Shown: positions 44,806 to 58,367 of the stretch, piece by piece
Layout: every line of letters starts with the position of its first letter
Position numbering within the stretch: position 1 is the first letter of the stretch
Assembly (NCBI GenBank): GCA_902500995.1
Contig: CABVSR010000001.1
Span: 199,416 to 263,415, forward strand
DNA from: an uncultured Nitrospira sp.
GTDB lineage: Bacteria > Nitrospirota > Nitrospiria > Nitrospirales > Nitrospiraceae
Direction: 5' to 3'
Length of the DNA stretch: 64,000 nucleotides
Program-made: the position numbers and the translations under genes
The notes under the pieces: model-generated
Told to the model about the DNA's origin: nothing
Database searches by the model: none
The model's input: the letters and a program-made list of their open reading frames with translations, nothing else

Positions 44806-47190
44806 TCACGCCATCGACACCGGATCGACGTCAATGTCATACCGGAGGCCGCCCCGTCGAGACTCCCGTTCAAGCCCCTCGCGCGTTCGCGCCGCTATCT
44901 CCTTACCCGCCTCGAGCGCCGCAGATTTGACCAGGATCTGCCAGCAATACCGGCCTCGCGTCATGACATGCGGCGCGGGAGATGGCCCAAGGATGAGGAT
45001 CTGTTTCGAGAGCGGTTCCGGCTCGGCCGAACCCATCGCCGTAGTTTCATGTTGATTTACCCCCGCACCCCTCCTTCCAGTAGCAGCCACTTGCGCTCGC
45101 AGCATAGTCACCCAGCGACCGGCGGCCTGAGCCACCACCGATTCCACCGTCCCGGACACATCCAGCCGAACCAGATGGGTCCAGGGCGGATAGTGAAGCA
45201 TCTTCCGGAACACGTGTTCCTGCTGCACAAACAGGTCTTCGTCGCCTGAGACCACGGCCGTGATCGCATGATGATCTGCAAACCGCGTCTGTATGAGGAG
45301 CCGGCCACCGGCACATCCGGGTCGAGCGAGATCGGCTGCATCCAGAAGAGCGTGGTACATCCGTTCTGCAGAACGGAAATCCGGAATATGCAGACCGGCA
45401 TCCGCATCAGGCAAGGCGACGAATGCCGCCCCCGGTTGAAGGCCAAGGCGGAATATCATCTGCGTACCGATCACGATATCAAGTTCCCCGGCGGCCAAAA
45501 GCCGATGAAACGCCCGCGCATCGGACGGGCGACGAATTGTTTCCCCGTCCACACGCGCGACGCGCGCCTGTGGAAACACCCGTCGAACGGCCTCTTCGAT
45601 ACGCTCCGTCCCTGATCCCACCGGTTCCAATTTCAGCGACTGACACCGGGGACACTGTTCGGGCACGGGTTTGGTGCGGTCACAGTAATGGCATCGCACA
45701 TGATTGCTGCGCCTGAAAAAGGTCAGCGCGACACTGCAGGCATCGCATTGCGGCATCGCCCCGCAATCCGCGCAATGCAGGACCGTCGCAAACCCTTTGC
45801 GATTCAAGTAGAGGATCGACAAGGCCTGTTGCCCCAAGGCCTCACGAATGCCTTCAATCAAGGGAGGCGACAAGAGGGCGCCGCCCGAAGACTCTCTGGG
45901 ATAGTCTTTCATATCGATGACATCCACGTTCGGGGCCTGGTACGGGTCTCGGTACACACAACGCGTCATTCGTCCTTCCTGCACCGCCGACAGGCTTTCG
46001 AGGGACGGATGGTTCGAGGCCAGCACCAACAGCGCGCGGGCGCAGGAAGCACGCTGGCGCGCAACTTCTCGCGCATGATAGCGGGGGACTTGTTCTTCCT
46101 TGAGAGACGCATCATCCTCTCCTTCCACCCACACGAGGCCCAGCCGTTCCAGGGGCGAAAACGCCGCCATGCGGGTACCAATGAGGACCATGGCCGAACC
46201 CCCTTGCGCCGCCTGCCAGGCCTCCGCGCGTTCCTGTACGGACAGGCCACTGTGCAAGAGCACCGGCCGTATGCCGACCGTCGCCAGGGCTCCGGCCAAT
46301 CGGCAGGCATGCTCAACATCACCGGTAAGAATCAGCGCTTGCTTCCCGCGACGAATGGTAGCTTGGGCAGCCCGAGCCAAGCACCACAGGCGCGTACGCT
46401 GATTTCCCTGAAGGAGCAGGGGGACGACAGCTTCCTGCTCGAGTGTCCGTTCCAGCAAATCCGGCCACGCCTGCGCTTCAGGTGGAGGATCTTCGAGAAC
46501 GGCAGGCTCGGCCTCCACCCCGATTGGAAGTGCGCCGCCCGGCGCTGAACTCTCCTGCTTGTGGAGACGGATGGTTTTTGAGACAACCGGCTGTTCATGA
46601 CGACCCACCAGCCCTTTTTGAAGCAGTGCCTGCAAGGCGAGCTTCCGGCGGGATGTGTCGCCCTTGAGAAGAGTCGCCGCCATGATGCCTTTGGGACGTC
46701 TGCGTAAGCGCGTGAGCAGCTCTGTTTCAGCGGCACTCAAGGCGCCGACAGGCGAGGGGCTCGCGAGACTAAGTTCCGTCGCCACATATCGAGACGGCAA
46801 TCGCCTCACCCGATCATCCGGTGGAAGCACGAGCTTGACACATTGCCCCCAGGGTGCGGCGTAGCGGTCGGCAACCCAGTGACTGAGCTCAATTTGGTCA
46901 GCCGTCAACAGGTGGCCCAGCGATGCCGCGCCAAGTGAACGGATAGCCTTGAGGTCCTTGGCCGGCGCGCCAGGAGGCAGTCGGTGATGGACTGCAATCA
47001 CGAGACCTTGAAGATCTCGGGAGCCGAACGGCACAAGCACCGACCGCCCAACTACAACACTGCCCTTGAGTTCTGAGGGGATCAAATAGGTAAACGGCCG
47101 ATGAAGCCGACGTGGCAATACGACGTCAACATACGTCGCAGGAAGCGAAGGGAGCGGCGAGGGGGCCGCTGGCGACCGGAGATCGGGCAT
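44806..47190 (-). CDS. priA: PriA-like primosomal protein lacking helicase motifs
   Basis: The 794-residue protein has the PriA layout: N-terminal DNA-binding domain (VDVVLPRRLHRPFTYLIP), winged helix, helicase lobes and the C4-type zinc repeats (CADCGAMPQCDAC; CHYCDRTKPVPEQCPRC). The helicase signature is gone: where GVTGSGKTEVY is expected the protein reads QGNQRTRLWCLA (about 261-272), the DEEH box is EGED (356-359), and SATPSLES has become SNHPSLES. It should not hydrolyse ATP in the usual way. Actinobacterial PriA proteins are known to be changed in a similar manner. ATG 47190 is preferred to 47301. Its likely role is as a fork-binding loader of the replicative helicase. Confidence 0.88.
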   Translation of the reverse strand: MPDLRSPAAPSPLPSLPATYVDVVLPRRLHRPFTYLIPSELKGSVVVGRSVLVPFGSRDLQGLVIAVHHRLPPGAPAKDLKAIRSLGAASLGHLLTADQIELSHWVADRYAAPWGQCVKLVLPPDDRVRRLPSRYVATELSLASPSPVGALSAAETELLTRLRRRPKGIMAATLLKGDTSRRKLALQALLQKGLVGRHEQPVVSKTIRLHKQESSAPGGALPIGVEAEPAVLEDPPPEAQAWPDLLERTLEQEAVVPLLLQGNQRTRLWCLARAAQATIRRGKQALILTGDVEHACRLAGALATVGIRPVLLHSGLSVQERAEAWQAAQGGSAMVLIGTRMAAFSPLERLGLVWVEGEDDASLKEEQVPRYHAREVARQRASCARALLVLASNHPSLESLSAVQEGRMTRCVYRDPYQAPNVDVIDMKDYPRESSGGALLSPPLIEGIREALGQQALSILYLNRKGFATVLHCADCGAMPQCDACSVALTFFRRSNHVRCHYCDRTKPVPEQCPRCQSLKLEPVGSGTERIEEAVRRVFPQARVARVDGETIRRPSDARAFHRLLAAGELDIVIGTQMIFRLGLQPGAAFVALPDADAGLHIPDFRSAERMYHALLDAADLARPGCAGGRLLIQTRFADHHAITAVVSGDEDLFVQQEHVFRKMLHYPPWTHLVRLDVSGTVESVVAQAAGRWVTMLRAQVAATGRRGAGVNQHETTAMGSAEPEPLSKQILILGPSPAPHVMTRGRYCWQILVKSAALEAGKEIAARTREGLERESRRGGLRYDIDVDPVSMA

Positions 47191-47348
47191 GCGGCATTCT
47201 AACAACACCGGTCTCGTGCAACAACGAGGACCGGCAGGAGGGACGCGCGGAGGATCAGGTCGGAAAGAAATGCAACCCGGGTGGGATGAGCATCGCGGCA
47301 CGCGAACCGGAATGACGGTCGGCCTGCATGAACCAGCCGCCGGGTGGA

Positions 47349-48866: not shown

Positions 48867-49424
48867 AGGTAATGTCCTCATATTGATCACATCTAGGAGG
48901 GTTATCTGTAGCAACCTTAGCAAAGAGCAAGGGGTTGTCAAGAATTCGCCCCAGCGCCAGGCTTTGATTCAAGTCGCTCTGGATGTTATCGTGAAGTCGA
49001 GACCGCCTTCCGGTCAAGGAACCATGCGGGTGACGTCATGGGAACAGAACAGCGACGCATCAATACTCAAGTGCCCCGTCGAACGAAAGTGCAACCTTCG
49101 ACACCCATGGCCTCGGAGTGGGATATTGACGGTGAGTCTCGGTCCTCCGGTCTCAAAACGCCGGCAAGCGAGATGAAGCCTGCATCTGCGCACGATCATT
49201 CCGTCGCCGGTGCTTCATCGTCATCCTGCACAAAGCCCTCAACGATCCCCGCGGCCAGTCATGACGGCGCTGGCTCCTAACCGCTGGACAGTATTCACAT
49301 TCTAGGACTATCGGGACTAAAGCCCTAGGTCCTTTGTGCGCTTGCTATTAAAAATAAGCAGGGGCTAAGATTCCGACCTCCTAATTTGCCTTATAAGCCC
49401 TCAAACCTGTTGAGGTTCGAGCCA
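48867..49424. other. Divergent intergenic region before the complex I operon
   Basis: About 560 bp. An open frame of 80 codons at 49038-49280 (+) has no recognisable features and is not called. Close to nuoA lies a GGACTA tandem (49305-49310 and 49315-49320) followed by CCTAGGTCC, then an AT-rich stretch (CTATTAAAAATAAGC, about 49344-49358), a plausible promoter area although no clear -35/-10 pair is seen. Confidence 0.4.
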
Positions 49425-49808
49425 ATGGCCGGTTCCGAGCTCCTCTTAGAGTATCTGAGTCGATATTTTCCGGTTTTAGTGTTTGTGTTCATCGCTCTTG
49501 CGTTCGGCGCAGGCACCCTGCTGATCAGCTACTTTGTTCAACCGAAATATCCAGAACCTGAAAAGCTTTCTACCTACGAGTGCGGATCCGAGCCCTTTTC
49601 CGATGCCAGAATGCCGTTTCCTGTTCGTTACTATATTTTTGCCATGCTGTTCGTGATTTTCGACGTGGAAGTCATCTTTCTCTATCCCTGGGCCATAGTC
49701 TTTAACAAGATCGGCCTCATTGGCCTGATCGAGATGTTGATCTTTATCGGTCTTTTCCTCGTCGCCTATGTATACGCCTGGCGAAAAGGAGCGTTGGAAT
49801 GGGATTGA
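49425..49808 (+). CDS. nuoA: NADH-quinone oxidoreductase subunit A
   Basis: NuoA (127 residues) is a small membrane subunit of complex I with three helices. Its conserved loop [20 protein letters not shown] is present, with the essential Cys and Asp/Glu residues near the quinone site. ATG 49425 fits the family better than the TTG at 49386. The stop overlaps nuoB by 10 bp. Confidence 0.93.
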
Positions 49809-50326
49809 TTCAACTCGGCGGGCACGATAAGGACGGCTCTCCCGATGTCATCACCCTCACGGTTGAAAAAGCCGTGAATTGGGCCAGGAAGGGCTCCCTG
49901 TGGCCCATGACGTTCGGACTCGCCTGCTGCGCGATTGAAATGATTGCGGCTGTCTCATCCCGCTACGACATGGATCGTTATGGAGCAGGGGTATTCCGAG
50001 CGTCGCCCCGCCAGTCCGATCTCATGATCGTGGCAGGTACCGTCTGCCGGCGCATGGCGCCCGTCATTCGAAAAATTTACGATCAGATGCCTGAACCGAA
50101 GTATGTGATTGCCATGGGCTCCTGCGCCACGTCAGGAAATATTTACGATAGTTACAGCGTGGTTCAAGGAGTCGATCGATTCGTGCCGGTCGACATTTAT
50201 GTGCCGGGATGCCCTCCGACTCCTGAAGCCCTGTTCGATGGCATTCTGAAATTGCAGGAGCGCATTATGCAAAAGCGCGTGTTTCTCTCCCAACCCCAAG
50301 AAGTGAAGGACGCGTTGAAGGTCTGA
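49799..50326 (+). CDS. nuoB: NADH-quinone oxidoreductase subunit B
   Basis: NuoB (175 residues) holds cluster N2, the final electron donor to quinone. All four ligands are present: adjacent Cys43-Cys44 (LACCAIEM), Cys109 (MGSCATSGN) and Cys138 ([10 protein letters not shown]). It overlaps nuoA by 10 bp. Confidence 0.97.
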
Positions 50327-50343
50327 CGGGCGGAATCGACTGC

Positions 50344-50841
50344 ATGAGTGAACTAGCCACACGTATCGAAGACACCTTTCCCGGCGCCTGCACAAAAGTG
50401 GTGGAATGGCGCGGGGACCTCGCCGTCACGGTGAAGCCGGAATCGCTACGCGATGTGGCCCGGTTTCTGCGGGATGATCCCGCCTTGCGCTTTGATTACA
50501 TCGTCCATGTCAGCTCCGTCGACTGGCCTGACGACGAAGACCGGTTCGAAGTCGTCTATGAAGTGTACTCGATTCGCACTCGGCAACGGATTCGCCTGAA
50601 AACGCGGGTGCCGGAATCGGACTGTATCGTCGATTCCCTGACTGAAATCTGGAAAGGCGCAGACTTCATGGAGCGCGAAGTCTACGACATGATGGGTATC
50701 CGGTTCCGGAACCATCCCGATCTTCGCCGGATTCTGATGCCGGACGAGTATGATGAAGGCTATCCGTTGCGCAAAGACTTTCCGCTTCGCGGCAAGGGGT
50801 GGCGCGACACGTTCGAATTTTTGGATGAACCGACCCGATAG
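50344..50841 (+). CDS. nuoC: NADH-quinone oxidoreductase subunit C
   Basis: NuoC (165 residues) is the 30-kDa-type structural subunit of the hydrophilic arm. The family signature occurs at FMEREVYDMMGIRFRNHPDL and RRILMPDEYDEGYPLRKDFP. It is a separate gene, not fused to nuoD. Spacing to nuoB is 17 bp. Confidence 0.95.
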   Translation: MSELATRIEDTFPGACTKVVEWRGDLAVTVKPESLRDVARFLRDDPALRFDYIVHVSSVDWPDDEDRFEVVYEVYSIRTRQRIRLKTRVPESDCIVDSLTEIWKGADFMEREVYDMMGIRFRNHPDLRRILMPDEYDEGYPLRKDFPLRGKGWRDTFEFLDEPTR

Positions 50842-50867
50842 TCAACGCGCGTTGACACTGAACGACC

Positions 50868-52115
50868 ATGGCACAGTTCGAAGACCAAAGAACCACCGTC
50901 TATAAAGTCGACCCCGAGCATCCCGAGAGCGAAACGCTTCCGACGCTGCGGACCGAGGAACTCCTGCTCAATATGGGCCCGCAGCACCCCAGCACGCATG
51001 GAGTGCTGAAGGTCATTCTGGAGCTGGAAGGCGAGCGGCTGGTCAAATCAACTCCAGTTATGGGCTTCCTCCATCGCGGCGTGGAAAAACTCGCCGAAGA
51101 AGGGACCTATCATCAGTTCATCCCGCACACCGATCGCCTCGATTATGTGTGCGCGATGTACAACAACTTCGCCTATTGCCGGGCGGTTGAAAAATTGATG
51201 AACATCACCGTGCCGGATCGCGCGGAATACCTCCGTACGATCGTCGCGGAGATTCAACGTATTATCGGTCACCAGTTCTGGCTGGGTACGCAAGCCCTTG
51301 ATATCGGCGCGATGACCGTCTTCTTTTATTGCTTCCGGGACAGGGAAATTCTCTTGGATTGGTTTGATGAACTCTGCGGCGCCCGCCTGACAACCAGCTG
51401 GTATCGCATCGGCGGCGTGGAACGGGATTTTACTCCATCCCTATTTGCCAAACTGAAACAATTCCTCGACTACTTCCCCCCGAAGATTGACGAATACGTC
51501 ATCTTTCTCGAGAAAAATCGCATCTGGCTCGCCAGAACCAAAGGGGTGGCGGTTATTTCGGCGGAAGATGCGCTGAGTTTTGGCTTGAGCGGACCCACAT
51601 TACGAGGTTCCGGCGTGGATTTCGATCTGCGCAAATATGAACCCTATTCCGCCTATCCCAAGTGTGAGTTCAGCGTCCCGGTCGGCAAGAACGGGGATAC
51701 GTACGATCGGTACTGGATCCGCGTGCAGGAACTTTACGAAAGCGTGAAGATCATCCGCCAATGCCTCGAACAGATCCAGGATGGGCCGATCATGGCGGAC
51801 GTACCCAGCGTGACCCTTCCGCCAAAAGAACGTGTGTTCACGAACCTGGAGTCCATGATCCAGCAATTCAAACTATTTTCCCAGGGATTTAACGCGCCGC
51901 CCGGTGAAATTTACTGTGGCACCGAAGCGCACAAGGGCGAATTAGGTTTCTACATCGTCAGCACGGGTGGCGGGAAGCCGTACCGGCTGAAAATACGCGC
52001 TCCCTCGTTTATTCACATGGGGGCCTTCGATCATATGTCGAAAGGCTATATGATCTCTGACGCCGTGACGATTTTCGGTACCTACGACATCGTCATGGGC
52101 GAGTGTGACAGATAG
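50868..52115 (+). CDS. nuoD: NADH-quinone oxidoreductase subunit D
   Basis: NuoD (415 residues) forms the quinone-binding site with NuoB. Expected segments include NMGPQHPSTHGVLKVILELE, with its quinone-site His residues, and the C-terminus FGTYDIVMGECDR. Length is normal. An 80-bp gap separates it from nuoG, where nuoE and nuoF normally lie. Confidence 0.97.
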   Translation: MAQFEDQRTTVYKVDPEHPESETLPTLRTEELLLNMGPQHPSTHGVLKVILELEGERLVKSTPVMGFLHRGVEKLAEEGTYHQFIPHTDRLDYVCAMYNNFAYCRAVEKLMNITVPDRAEYLRTIVAEIQRIIGHQFWLGTQALDIGAMTVFFYCFRDREILLDWFDELCGARLTTSWYRIGGVERDFTPSLFAKLKQFLDYFPPKIDEYVIFLEKNRIWLARTKGVAVISAEDALSFGLSGPTLRGSGVDFDLRKYEPYSAYPKCEFSVPVGKNGDTYDRYWIRVQELYESVKIIRQCLEQIQDGPIMADVPSVTLPPKERVFTNLESMIQQFKLFSQGFNAPPGEIYCGTEAHKGELGFYIVSTGGGKPYRLKIRAPSFIHMGAFDHMSKGYMISDAVTIFGTYDIVMGECDR

Positions 52116-52195
52116 CGCAACGCATGAGCGGTGAGTGAAGAATCGTGAATTCTCACACATCGCCAAAACTTATAACTTCGTACTAGGGCGAAAGC

Positions 52196-54895
52196 ATGGG
52201 CTTGAAACCAGCGACCAATCCCGACGTTGAAGCCGCGACGATTGAGCTGTCCATTGACGGGCGAACGGTCTCGGCCAAAGACGGCGTCTCGCTTTACGAT
52301 GTGATCGCCAGCACGGGCAAGATTATTCCCGCCATGTGTTATCACTACACCTTTGACCCTTTCGGGTCGTGCGGGATGTGCCTTGTTATGCAGGAAGGGA
52401 AAAAAGCCCCAGTGCGTTCCTGCACCGCCAAGGCCGCAGCCGGCATGGTGATCAGAACCGACGGGGATGACCTGTTCGCCGCTCGAAAGAAAGCGGTCGA
52501 AAAACATCTATCGGTCCATCCTTTGGACTGTCCGGTCTGTGACGCGGACGGGCACTGCGAACTCCAGGACATGGCCTTTCAGCATGGCGTCACCAACCTC
52601 GCCAATGCCAAGCAAAAGTTCATTCCGGAAGACACGCGCAGCCTCGTGCTGGATTTCAATATGAATCGCTGCATCGCCTGCGCGGAATGCATCAACGTCT
52701 GCAAAGACGTCTTGATGATCGACGCGCTGCAGTTCATGAAAAAAGGCGGCTTCAACCAGGTCGTGGCCAAGGGCGACCAGCCACTCGCGTGCGAATTCTG
52801 CGGCGATTGCCTGGCTGTCTGTCCTGTCGGGGCGATCACGAACAAATACTCGAAATATTTGTACAAACCCTGGCAGATGAAGAAGACCACGACCACATGC
52901 AACTATTGTGGCGACGGCTGCCAAATGCATCTCGAAACGAAGGACACGGAAGTCGTTCGAGTGACGTCGCCGCTTTCCTGGAAGAATAAATGGGGCGATC
53001 GGTCGGAGACCGCCAAAGGTCACGGGGGACTGTGCGTTCGCGGCCGATTCGGATTCCAATATATCGATAGTCAACAACGGCTCCGGCAACCCTTGGTCCG
53101 CACCGGCGACAACCTGGCTGAAACGCCATGGCTCGACGCCATGCAAACCGTTATCGATCGACTGTCAGACATTCACCGCAAGCACGGACCCGAGTCGATT
53201 GCCGGGCTCATCACCGCCCGGTGCACCAACGAAGAACTGTACTTGTTTCAAAAGCTCATGCGCGCAGGCCTCCGCACGAACCAGCTCGACAGTAGCGCCC
53301 GGTACGGCCACCTCAACTACGTCCATGCGGTTCGCCATGCCGTGGGCATCGGCCGGCCGCTGAATGACTGGGAAGACCTGACCAAAGCCAAGGCGATCCT
53401 CGTGATCGGTTCCAATGTTACGGAAACCAACCCGTTGACCGCCGTCCGCATTAAAGAAGCCATACGTGTGTATCACGCACAAGTGATCGTCGTTGATTCA
53501 TCCAATACCAATATCGCGCAATTGGCCTCCCATCCGCTGCTGGTGAAGCCCGGCACGGAAGGTCTGTTGATCGACGGTCTCGTCAAAGCCGTCATCGAGC
53601 AGGATCTCGTCGATGAGACCAGCACGACAGAACATCCGCAGGCATTTGCTGCCCTGAAACAAGCCGTGGCCCAGGTGTCGCTGGAACAGGTGTCCGGCCA
53701 GACCGGCCTGTCCGTCGAACAGATCCGTGAAGTAGCCGCCATCTTCGCGGAAGCCCCGCGCGCCGTGGCTTTGTGCGCAGAAGGTATCGTGCGCCGTAGC
53801 AATGGATACCAGAATGTCCTGAAGCTCATCGATCTTGCATGGGTCACCGGCAAATTGGGACAACCAGGATCCGGTGTCACGACCGTCACCGAGGAGGTGA
53901 ACGAACAGGGCGCCCTCGACATGGGGGTGGCTCCTGAGTTCCTTCCCGGGCAGGCTCGCTTCGATGATCCTGGCGCACGTGAGCGGTTTGGAAAGGCGTG
54001 GGAGGTCACCCTTCCAACTATCGGCACCGGCGCCAATCTTCTGGAGATTTTCACCCGCATTCACAAGGGTCAGATCAAGGCCCTCTACGTCATCGGCGAG
54101 AATCCGCTGGCGACCTTACCGGCCTCCATGGACGTGAAAGGCGCCCTCGGCAAGCTGCAACTTCTGATCGTTCAGGATCCGTTTCTGACCGAAACAGGCC
54201 GTATGGCCCATGTCGTGCTCCCGGCGGCCACCTATGCGGAAAAGGATGGAACGTTCACCAACTTGGAAGGAAAAGTCCTGCGCGTCCGACAGGCGATTGA
54301 TCAAGTCGGAGAAAGCCTGCCGGACTGGCATATCATGACGGCCTTGGCCAACGGCCTGGGTTACGAATGGCCCTATCAGTCTCCGCAGGATGTGCAGAAC
54401 GAAATCATGAAGTTGCTCCCCGGTTACTACAATCTCGGTCAGCCGCGCCGCATCTCTCCCTCAGCCGATGCGTACCTGTCGAACGGGTATACCGGAGAGG
54501 TCGTGAATCGATATCGCCGGCAGGCTGCGGATGAGGACCGCTCTCGCCCATTTACCTTGGTGATGGGCCAGGTTCTCTACCATTCCGGGAAATTGTCCAC
54601 GCAGGCGTCGGGGCTCATCAACATTGAGCCGAACAATGGTCGTATCCGCATGAACCCGGCTGATGTGGAGAAACTCGGCCTCACGGAACAATCCACGGTT
54701 CGCCTGACCTCGCAACAAGGCTCCGTGCAGGCCGGAGTGAAAGCAGACCCTGATGTGCAAGTGGGATCATGCTTCTTCCCCGAACATTTTAATGAGCCTC
54801 CGATAAAAGATTTAATGACGATCGAAGCTGATACTGTAACGGGCGTGCCGTATTTCAAATCGGCGCGCGTAAAGATTGAAAAGGTCGGAGCGTAA
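52196..54895 (+). CDS. nuoG: NADH-quinone oxidoreductase subunit G (iron-sulfur, molybdopterin-oxidoreductase fold)
   Basis: The 899-residue protein has, in order: a [2Fe-2S] domain (Cys48, Cys59, Cys62, Cys76), the His-Cys3 cluster motif (His108, Cys112, Cys115, Cys121), a two-cluster ferredoxin domain (Cys159/162/165/169 and Cys199/202/205/209), another [4Fe-4S] set (Cys235/238/242/280) and a large molybdopterin-type domain. The catalytic Cys/Sec site of formate dehydrogenases appears to be Ser here (LDSSARYGH, about 364-372), so formate oxidation is unlikely. The next gene is nuoI; no nuoH lies between. Confidence 0.93.
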   Translation: MGLKPATNPDVEAATIELSIDGRTVSAKDGVSLYDVIASTGKIIPAMCYHYTFDPFGSCGMCLVMQEGKKAPVRSCTAKAAAGMVIRTDGDDLFAARKKAVEKHLSVHPLDCPVCDADGHCELQDMAFQHGVTNLANAKQKFIPEDTRSLVLDFNMNRCIACAECINVCKDVLMIDALQFMKKGGFNQVVAKGDQPLACEFCGDCLAVCPVGAITNKYSKYLYKPWQMKKTTTTCNYCGDGCQMHLETKDTEVVRVTSPLSWKNKWGDRSETAKGHGGLCVRGRFGFQYIDSQQRLRQPLVRTGDNLAETPWLDAMQTVIDRLSDIHRKHGPESIAGLITARCTNEELYLFQKLMRAGLRTNQLDSSARYGHLNYVHAVRHAVGIGRPLNDWEDLTKAKAILVIGSNVTETNPLTAVRIKEAIRVYHAQVIVVDSSNTNIAQLASHPLLVKPGTEGLLIDGLVKAVIEQDLVDETSTTEHPQAFAALKQAVAQVSLEQVSGQTGLSVEQIREVAAIFAEAPRAVALCAEGIVRRSNGYQNVLKLIDLAWVTGKLGQPGSGVTTVTEEVNEQGALDMGVAPEFLPGQARFDDPGARERFGKAWEVTLPTIGTGANLLEIFTRIHKGQIKALYVIGENPLATLPASMDVKGALGKLQLLIVQDPFLTETGRMAHVVLPAATYAEKDGTFTNLEGKVLRVRQAIDQVGESLPDWHIMTALANGLGYEWPYQSPQDVQNEIMKLLPGYYNLGQPRRISPSADAYLSNGYTGEVVNRYRRQAADEDRSRPFTLVMGQVLYHSGKLSTQASGLINIEPNNGRIRMNPADVEKLGLTEQSTVRLTSQQGSVQAGVKADPDVQVGSCFFPEHFNEPPIKDLMTIEADTVTGVPYFKSARVKIEKVGA

Positions 54896-54939
54896 GAGTA
54901 AGCTCGTCCGTCTTTTTGATGTCGTCAAAGGTGGTGGGT

Positions 54940-55527
54940 ATGAGTGTCGGGGCCCTGACCAAAAAAGTTCTGCAGGCGGCGTTGTTCTACGAAATCTGGG
55001 ACGCCATGAAGGTCACCTTCAAGCACATGTTTCATCGGCCCATTACGTTTCAATATCCTCGCGAGCAACGCACGATTCCAGACGGTCACCGGGGCGCCCT
55101 CGGGCTCCTTCGCTATAGCGATGGGCGTGATCGCTGCGTGGGATGCGATCTCTGTGAAGCAGCCTGCCCATCCCGTTGCATCAAGGTAATCAGCCAGGAG
55201 GATCCCGAACGACCGCTGCAGCGTTTTGCCAGCGAGTTTTATATCGACATCACCAAATGCGTCTTTTGCGGATACTGTGTCGAAGCCTGTCCGGTGAACG
55301 CCTTGGCGATGACGAAAATGTATGAATACTCTACCCACGACAAGCGAACCCTCCTCTTCGATAAAAAGCGGCTCTATGAGGTCGGCGAACGCCACCTTGA
55401 GGACGCCAAGAAATATCTGTACACCCATAACCAAGAAAAAAATTCGGACGAAAGCCGAGAGTATCGTTACTACTTTCCGCAGTCCGTCCTGAAACCTACA
55501 CAGTCACAACCCAAACATTTGAGCTGA
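54940..55527 (+). CDS. nuoI: NADH-quinone oxidoreductase subunit I
   Basis: NuoI (195 residues) carries clusters N6a and N6b in two CxxCxxCxxxCP motifs (CVGCDLCEAACP; CVFCGYCVEACP). ATG 54940 is preceded by GGTGG; ATG 54919 is an alternative. It starts 44 bp after nuoG, where nuoH would normally come first. Confidence 0.95.
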   Translation: MSVGALTKKVLQAALFYEIWDAMKVTFKHMFHRPITFQYPREQRTIPDGHRGALGLLRYSDGRDRCVGCDLCEAACPSRCIKVISQEDPERPLQRFASEFYIDITKCVFCGYCVEACPVNALAMTKMYEYSTHDKRTLLFDKKRLYEVGERHLEDAKKYLYTHNQEKNSDESREYRYYFPQSVLKPTQSQPKHLS

Positions 55528-55538
55528 ATCGTACCGTT

Positions 55539-56063
55539 ATGGCCTTTGTGTTTTTCGCGTATTTCGCAGTGGTTAGTATTGTCGCCGGCATTCTCACTGT
55601 GTCATTGAAGAATCCCGTGCAATGCGGCCTGGCGCTTCTCGCACTACTGCTCCACGTGTCAGGGCTGTTCGTGATGCTGAACGCCGAATTCTTGTGGGCC
55701 GTTCAGGTCATCGTGTACGCGGGCGCCATCCTGGTTCTCTATCTATTCGTGCTCATGCTGCTGAACCTCAAAACCGACGACCGCTACTTCCATGCCCGAA
55801 CCCCGTATCTGCTGGCGCCGGCCGTGGTCGGCCTAATCTACCTATTGTTCCTATTGATGCGTTCGCCGTTCAGCGGATCTCGAGGTGATGCCTCGACAGC
55901 CGCCGTCCTGCTCAACGGGGACGCGCATGCCGTCGGCATCAAGATGTTCAGTGATTATTTGCTCCAGTTTGAAATTATCGGTGTGTTCCTGACGGGCGCG
56001 ATCGTCGGCGCGATCGTTCTTGCCAAAGCGCCCAGATCCATCGAAACAAGGCGGGACGCATGA
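55539..56063 (+). CDS. nuoJ: NADH-quinone oxidoreductase subunit J
   Basis: NuoJ (174 residues) is a membrane subunit with five predicted helices. The conserved segment is EFLWAVQVIVYAGAILVLYL followed by FVLMLLNL. It overlaps nuoK by 4 bp (ATGA). Confidence 0.94.
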   Translation: MAFVFFAYFAVVSIVAGILTVSLKNPVQCGLALLALLLHVSGLFVMLNAEFLWAVQVIVYAGAILVLYLFVLMLLNLKTDDRYFHARTPYLLAPAVVGLIYLLFLLMRSPFSGSRGDASTAAVLLNGDAHAVGIKMFSDYLLQFEIIGVFLTGAIVGAIVLAKAPRSIETRRDA

Positions 56064-56362
56064 TTCCGTTATCCGCTTACGTGGCAGTCAGCGCCATCCT
56101 GTTTACAACTGGATTGCTCGGTGTCCTGATCCGCCGCAATTTTATTATCGTCCTCATGTCCGTCGAAATCATGCTGAACGCGGCCACCATCAATCTGGTC
56201 GCCTTTTCTCATTACCTGGAATCCATGCAGGGTCAGATCGTGGCGTTGTTTATCATCGCCATCGCAGCGGGAGAGGCGGCCATCGGGCTGGCCATCATCA
56301 TCGTCGTATTCCGCGGAAAAATCTCGACCAATGTCGACGAAATGAACCTATTGAAGTGGTAA
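56060..56362 (+). CDS. nuoK: NADH-quinone oxidoreductase subunit K
   Basis: NuoK (100 residues, normal length) is a three-helix subunit related to MnhC antiporter proteins. Both buried Glu residues of the proton path are visible (MSVEIMLNAATINL and AAGEAAIGLAIIIV). The next gene starts 1 bp after its stop. Confidence 0.96.
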   Translation: MIPLSAYVAVSAILFTTGLLGVLIRRNFIIVLMSVEIMLNAATINLVAFSHYLESMQGQIVALFIIAIAAGEAAIGLAIIIVVFRGKISTNVDEMNLLKW

Positions 56363-56363
56363 C

Positions 56364-58367
56364 GTGTCCGACTCCATCGACCTGATCGTAAAATTAATTC
56401 CCTTGTTTCCGTTGATGGCCGTCGTGATCAACGGCCTCTTCGGGCATCGCTATTCCCACGACCTGGCGCACCGGTTTGCCTGGGGCTCGGTCCTGATGTC
56501 GTTCCTCTGCGTGCTGGCGGTCTTCACGGAAACCTTGCGGACCGGAGCGGCGCGTGAAGTCATCGCCTACAAATGGATTTTCGGCGGCGATCTCACCATC
56601 AATCTCGCCTATCTCATCGACCCTCTGACCTGCATCATGCTCCTGGTCATTACCGGAGTCGGGTTTCTCATCCACGTGTACTCCGTGGGATACATGCACG
56701 GAGAAGCGGGGTTCACGCGGTTTTTCGTGTACATGAACCTCTTCATGGTGTCGATGCTTCTGCTGGTGATGGGCAACAACTATGTTGTGCTCTTCATCGG
56801 ATGGGAAGGTGTCGGCCTCTGTTCGTATCTCTTGATCGGCTACTACTATGACAAGGTGTCGGCGGCCAAGGCTGCGACCAAGGCGTTCGTGGTCAATCGC
56901 ATCGGTGATGCCGGATTTTTGTTGGCCATTTTCCTGGTGTTTGTGAACTTCCGGACACTCGATTACACCCAGGTGATGCAGAATGCGGCGCAACTGTCCC
57001 CTGAAATGGCCACGGCGATCGCCTTATGCCTGCTTGTCGGAGCGGTCGGAAAGTCAGCCCAGCTCCCGCTGTACACCTGGCTCCCCGACGCGATGGAAGG
57101 CCCGACCCCTGTCAGTGCGCTTATCCATGCGGCCACCATGGTCACGGCCGGCGTCTACATGATCGTTCGCAACCATGCCATTTTCGACCTCGCTCCTGTC
57201 GCGATGACGACGGTCGCCTGGATCGGCGGATTGACAGCCCTCTTCGCAGCCACGATCGGACTGGTCCAGACGGATATCAAGCGAGTGTTGGCCTATTCCA
57301 CCGTGAGCCAACTCGGATACATGTTCCTGGGCTGCGGCCTCGGGGCGTACACAGCCGCGGTGTTCCATCTCATGACCCATGCCTTCTTCAAAGCCCTCCT
57401 CTTCCTGTCAGCCGGGTCGGTCATCCACGCGCTCTCCGGCGAGCAGGACATCCGCAAGATGGGCGCCTTGAAGTCAAAAATTCCATGGACCCACACGTTG
57501 TTCCTCATCGGTACGATCGCGATCGCAGGGATTCCGCCACTCGCGGGATTCTGGAGCAAAGATGAAATCATGGGCCATGCCTTCGTGCATCACCATTATC
57601 TGCTCTATGGCATGGCAGCGATCGGCGCATTCCTGACCTCGTTTTATATGTTCCGACTGACGTACCTGACATTCTATGGAACCTCGCGCCTCGACCATCA
57701 TACGGCCGAGCATGTGCACGAATCCCCCATGGTCATGATCGGCCCGCTCGTCGTGCTGGCTACGCTGTCCGTCATCGGCGGAATCCCCGGCGTCCCTCCG
57801 GAAAACGGCTGGTTCCACCATTTCCTCCATTCCGTCGCAGGAGTTGCGGGAGCAGAACACGCGACCCCTCCAGCCTTGATGTTCGGACTGATGGGGACGG
57901 CTACGGTCATTGCACTGCTCGGGTGGGGCCTCGCGCATTACTTTTACAGCGGGCCATCATCCGCGGCGGCGGCACTCTCCGACCGTCTGCCCGGCCTGTA
58001 CACCACGCTGCTCAATAAATACTACGTCGACGAGCTCTACGACCGGCTGTTTGTCGAACCGACGAAACAGTTGGGAAGGCTCTGCGATTGGTTTGACCGA
58101 ACCATCATTGACGGGCTGGTCCGGGGTATTGATCGAGGAACGGACCTGAGCTCTGCGGCCATTACCTGGACCGAAAAACATGTGGTCTACGCAGGCTTGA
58201 ATATTATCGGCTATGCAAACCATCTGTTGGCCCGCTCCTGGCGACGTCTCCAGACCGGCATGGTTCACCAGTATGCCGCCATCATCGTGGCCGGACTCTT
58301 TATTCTCGTGCACCTCATACTGTTGATTTGGACGGGAGCCGGCTCCGCCGGTTATTCCGCACGTTGA
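56364..58367 (+). CDS. nuoL: NADH-quinone oxidoreductase subunit L
   Basis: NuoL (667 residues) is the distal proton-pumping subunit with about 16 helices and a C-terminal lateral helix. The antiporter core is clear (NNYVVLFIGWEGVGLCSYLL, LPDAMEGPTPVSALIHAATM, KRVLAYSTVSQLGYMFLGCG). The start codon is GTG. With two NuoM subunits the lateral helix would have to span an extra module; the C-terminal region after about residue 530 is long enough to be worth comparing. Confidence 0.95.
   Translation: MSDSIDLIVKLIPLFPLMAVVINGLFGHRYSHDLAHRFAWGSVLMSFLCVLAVFTETLRTGAAREVIAYKWIFGGDLTINLAYLIDPLTCIMLLVITGVGFLIHVYSVGYMHGEAGFTRFFVYMNLFMVSMLLLVMGNNYVVLFIGWEGVGLCSYLLIGYYYDKVSAAKAATKAFVVNRIGDAGFLLAIFLVFVNFRTLDYTQVMQNAAQLSPEMATAIALCLLVGAVGKSAQLPLYTWLPDAMEGPTPVSALIHAATMVTAGVYMIVRNHAIFDLAPVAMTTVAWIGGLTALFAATIGLVQTDIKRVLAYSTVSQLGYMFLGCGLGAYTAAVFHLMTHAFFKALLFLSAGSVIHALSGEQDIRKMGALKSKIPWTHTLFLIGTIAIAGIPPLAGFWSKDEIMGHAFVHHHYLLYGMAAIGAFLTSFYMFRLTYLTFYGTSRLDHHTAEHVHESPMVMIGPLVVLATLSVIGGIPGVPPENGWFHHFLHSVAGVAGAEHATPPALMFGLMGTATVIALLGWGLAHYFYSGPSSAAAALSDRLPGLYTTLLNKYYVDELYDRLFVEPTKQLGRLCDWFDRTIIDGLVRGIDRGTDLSSAAITWTEKHVVYAGLNIIGYANHLLARSWRRLQTGMVHQYAAIIVAGLFILVHLILLIWTGAGSAGYSAR

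Follow-up and report, generated by a model that had tools for sequence, protein, structure and literature searches.

Results

The window, the whole 64,000-nucleotide stretch of uncultured Nitrospira sp. DNA analysed here, carries priA on its minus strand (44806–47301) as a single intact open reading frame, which encodes 831 aa as listed from a GTG codon; an ATG at 47190 (M38) is probably the better candidate for the start. The product scores 374.6 bits against the PriA model TIGR00595 (cut-off 230.35) and exceeds the Pfam cut-offs for PF17764 (PriA_3primeBD), PF18319 (Zn_ribbon_PriA), and PF18074 (PriA_C), which places the 3′-DNA-binding, Cys-rich, and C-terminal domains all in this one protein. 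Its sequence matches in the PDB are PriA chains only, and it scores 425 bits against the PRK05580 PriA models versus 164 bits against those of PRK14873. A search of the genome for PriA returned one copy, and two further weak matches to the PriA model proved to be Mfd and RecG. A second, canonical PriA in the same genome, which the first-pass annotation had regarded as fatal to its reading of a helicase-free protein, was searched for and is absent.

The neighbours of priA (a histidine kinase, an OmpA-like protein, and complex I genes) are uninformative about PriA. Beyond it lies a respiratory complex I (nuo) cluster on the plus strand (49386–58367), which includes the 49-kDa subunit, a molybdopterin-type NuoG-like subunit, and an antiporter subunit. 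An open frame of 286 aa runs antisense to priA (45688–46548, plus strand) across the motif I–II region and is probably a by-product of base composition.

The helicase motor of the window PriA is disrupted at every signature motif. At the position of motif I (Walker A; 46375–46407, minus strand, as for all features below), the GVTGSGKTEVY of live PriAs reads GNQRT-RLWCLA, with one residue deleted, and at motif II (Walker B; approximately 46111–46125) DEEH reads EGED(D). Motif III (45994–46017) has changed from SATPSLES to SNHPSLES. These three readings, made in the first-pass annotation, proved correct when we re-read the sequence, although its interval for the damage (46111–46413) covers motifs I and II and leaves motif III just outside. 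The damage is wider than that annotation said, because motifs V and VI are lost as well: GTQMxAKG(xDF) reads GTQMIFRL in motif V (45430–45468), with loss of the lysine and the glycine, and the arginine-finger motif VI (45307–45342) has gone entirely, with DAADLARP in place of QxxGRxGR. Thus, the window PriA has neither the Walker A GxTGSGKT and Walker B DEEH of an active SF2 helicase nor its motif VI QxxGRxGR, and a pattern scan of the whole protein found no [AG]xxxxGK[ST] P-loop motif. The eight zinc-binding cysteines of the Cys-rich region (45643–45774, PF18319), by contrast, are all present, as the first-pass annotation had noted. Loss of the motor motifs, retention of the DNA-binding architecture, and the status of sole PriA in the genome are together the marks of a pseudohelicase.

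An AlphaFold2 model computed with 26 sequences (pLDDT 82.5, pTM 0.79) matches the E. coli and Klebsiella PriA structures over the whole chain (Z = 36.6, 580 residues, rmsd 3.6 for 6dcr_B; Z = 31.5, 555 residues, rmsd 2.9 for 4nl8_B). Together with the domain scores, this end-to-end match bears out the earlier claim that the overall layout is preserved. Compared with canonical PriA (PDB 4nl4, 4nl8, 6dgd, 6dcr, and 8fak), domain order and fold are the same over ∼580 residues, whereas the ATP-binding and coupling motifs of the canonical helicase are all lost. The phosphate-binding loop is gone in the model, since strand 294–299 passes almost directly into helix 301–317. Sequence and model together argue strongly that the window PriA is catalytically dead.

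We then compared PriA across relatives, 56 of 61 of which encode a PriA above the model cut-off in the first search. Walker A is missing from every Nitrospirales PriA with readable motif regions (∼60 genomes, with six more added from a phylum search), and no PriA examined from the order retains motif I, II, III, V, or VI; among the named carriers are Nitrospira moscoviensis, several Nitrospira MAGs, and Nitrospirales bacterium NPIRA06. One genome just outside Nitrospirales has a PriA that is likewise motor-dead. The comparison with other Nitrospirota PriAs, proposed in the first-pass annotation, places the dead state order-wide in Nitrospirales; elsewhere in the class, the remaining orders have textbook motifs, as do many further families across the phylum. 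The motifs are also intact (GxTxSGKT) at the 72 other named loci in the scan, nearly all from other phyla. Because every examined PriA of the order shares the dead state, the loss is not a product of chance or error, nor is it peculiar to one strain.

No PriA was detected in G136 (2.0 Mb, 99% complete, from the same family) with either TIGR00595 or a lineage profile, and PriA is also undetected in the less complete G040 and G053. The reduced genome of G136 may have shed PriA entirely, so that this lineage may manage without its function, or there may be a gap in the assembly.

The priA reading frame is open in all dead-PriA genomes of the order (∼60), and ten within-genus pairs give dN/dS values (NG86) of 0.15–0.33 over priA and of 0–0.14 over the Cys-rich region, indicating purifying selection on the gene. 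To describe which residues were lost, we used 94 columns that are at least 95% invariant among 114 live PriAs; the totals contain a few duplicates, because a single contig can stand behind two named loci (e.g., L145 and L053). Twenty-five of these columns are retained by fewer than 20% of the Nitrospirales clade, and nearly all of them fall within motifs I, Ia, II, III, V, and VI, next to these motifs, or at glutamine 276. Forty-six are retained by more than 90% of the clade, including all eight zinc cysteines and the conserved GTR, RYxAR, NRxG, DFR, and C-terminal elements; R377, E395, Y408, R411, G503, Q671, and R699 are among the residues kept. At many of the lost positions the replacement residue is fixed within the genus, as with W306, L308, A332, G394, H431, L658, and P661 (27 of 27 sequences each).

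A second set of dead PriAs occurs elsewhere in the phylum (families f13, f19, f21–f28, and f30). These proteins are shorter (∼600–705 aa) and keep all eight cysteines. In a tree of 103 PriAs, which was built without Deinococcota or Actinobacteria sequences, supported branches force two changes of state; the two changes stand when the motif columns are removed, and the grouping of all dead PriAs in one clade is rejected (p-AU = 0.0035). The second clade has lost 27 of the 94 canonical columns, compared with 25 in the Nitrospirales clade, and 19 are common to both versus 7.2 expected (hypergeometric p = 6e-9, an optimistic value because columns within one motif are not independent). Hence, the motor was lost independently at least twice within the phylum, with largely the same residues affected. 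The order-wide dead state, the dN/dS of about 0.15–0.33, the retained zinc and DNA-site residues, and this parallel loss together point to selection for a helicase-free function. Such selection, rather than a sequencing error, had been proposed in the first-pass annotation, and the proposal is now well supported.

The search for restart partners recommended there found PriC in 0 of 29 genomes and DnaT in 0 of 8. PriB is related to SSBs, and the matches to the PriB model (22–39 bits against a cut-off of 72) are sub-threshold and SSB-sized. DciA, a widespread DnaB partner, is encoded in all 29 genomes tested, with dead and live PriA alike.

The window's genome encodes RecG, RecQ, and UvrD/Rep-type helicases. 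RecG is found in dead- and live-PriA genomes alike, and RecQ and UvrD/Rep-type matches do not separate the two groups; as none of these families follows the split, no particular helicase stands out as a substitute. The first-pass annotation had held that replication restart would need another helicase, a claim that these distributions leave unproven; moreover, according to work cited in PMC4504706, primosome assembly persists with an ATPase-dead E. coli PriA.

Two side observations concern the same helicase families. In a comparison of genomes G000, G004, G024, G029, G140, G041, and G050, the top UvrD-family match lies at ∼1e-71 to 1e-75 in Nitrospirales and at ∼1e-92 or better in other orders of the class, so that the PcrA/UvrD type may be missing from Nitrospirales; this difference does not track PriA loss, since the second dead-PriA clade mostly keeps the PcrA/UvrD type. 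In G123 and G081, two nearly complete genomes of the same phylum, no RecG was found above the search threshold and only Mfd was matched.

Discussion

The window PriA, the only one in its genome, is a pseudohelicase that very probably serves as an ATP-independent scaffold for fork recognition and DnaB reloading. In this mechanism, the 3′-binding, winged-helix, Cys-rich, and C-terminal domains would recognise the branched DNA at forks that have stalled or undergone repair, and PriA would bring the replicative helicase DnaB there, probably with DciA, with neither recognition nor recruitment calling for ATP binding or hydrolysis. Clearing of the lagging strand, if needed, could fall to another enzyme such as the encoded RecG, RecQ, or UvrD/Rep-type helicases; alternatively, restart may be confined to forks that need no clearing. 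That the protein still restarts replication is moderately well grounded in the conservation of its domains, its single-copy status, and the purifying selection on its gene. By analogy with Deinococcus radiodurans PriA (PMC4504706), it would lack ATPase and helicase activity and would bind forks and reload DnaB.

Other explanations fit less well. Motif loss is all that would suggest a decaying pseudogene or an assembly or sequencing error, and this possibility is negligible: open frames in ∼60 genomes of the order, all motif-dead, and dN/dS values of 0.15–0.33 exclude both. It is also very unlikely that a rebuilt, non-canonical site still binds or hydrolyses nucleotide and that the protein is a divergent but active helicase. 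Both RecA-like lobes and the core residues E395, R377, and Q671 are indeed kept, but the Walker A lysine and threonine, the Walker B aspartate and glutamate, the motif V lysine and glycine, and both motif VI arginines were lost together, the P-loop is one residue shorter and modelled as a strand-to-helix turn, and the protein has no other P-loop motif. Departure of PriA from replication restart to another role, such as the scaffolding of DNA structures during recombination or repair, would agree with the full erosion of the motor and with the genus-fixed replacements, which suggest new constraints. We consider such a departure improbable, given the retained fork-recognition domains and zinc cysteines, the absence of any other PriA in the genome, and the presence of DciA.

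A further alternative concerns history, namely that dead PriA arose once and either was shared by both Nitrospirota clades or was transferred from Actinobacteria or Deinococcota. The divergence and long stems of both dead clades make a long-branch artefact or a transfer conceivable, and the tree held no sequence from those two phyla. A single origin is nonetheless unlikely in view of the two changes across supported branches, with or without the motif columns, the p-AU value for one clade, and the much higher score of the window protein on PRK05580 than on PRK14873. The two losses within the phylum likewise argue against a dead state inherited in common with the Deinococcus protein.

Actinobacterial PriA probably also lacks the helicase motifs. 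An earlier description calls it smaller and strongly divergent (PMC1193525); the window protein is likewise divergent but matches the PRK05580 models far better than those of PRK14873 (425 versus 164 bits). The closer parallel is D. radiodurans PriA, which neither hydrolyses ATP nor unwinds DNA but still binds its own DnaB, as well as ssDNA and forks, for which its affinity is about two-fold below that of E. coli PriA (PMC4504706). Like the window protein, it is full-length and keeps its DNA-binding parts with motifs I and II disabled; its genome has no clear priB or dnaT, and DciA is present in the named Deinococcota control genomes. The lesion in this other phylum is a Walker A lysine-to-arginine change with a poor Walker B (PMC4504706), whereas the loss in the window protein goes deeper, with Walker A shortened and rewritten and motifs III, V, and VI gone. 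It also differs in having occurred at least twice within Nitrospirota and in being known here from sequence and model.

PriA pseudohelicases as a kind are already established, having been demonstrated in Deinococcus-Thermus. What is new is the order-wide occurrence in Nitrospirales, a further, independent loss within the same phylum, the near identity of the residues lost, and the completeness of the loss. A literature search, with most subscription journals outside its range, found no paper joining PriA, replication restart, and Nitrospira. More speculatively, and with rather low probability, PriA may repeatedly have become a motor-less restart platform in DciA-type bacteria, the former ATP pocket in Nitrospirales, fixed for new residues, now binding a partner (e.g., DciA or DnaB) for ATP-free reloading.

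That PriA should be a helicase in the first place is puzzling, given that the E. coli protein goes on assembling primosomes when its ATPase is dead. Within a single phylum, precisely the motor residues have been lost repeatedly and independently, beside close relatives with live PriA. This constitutes a natural experiment, in which matched live and dead PriAs could be compared for their choice of fork substrates, their partners, and their DnaB/DciA loading.
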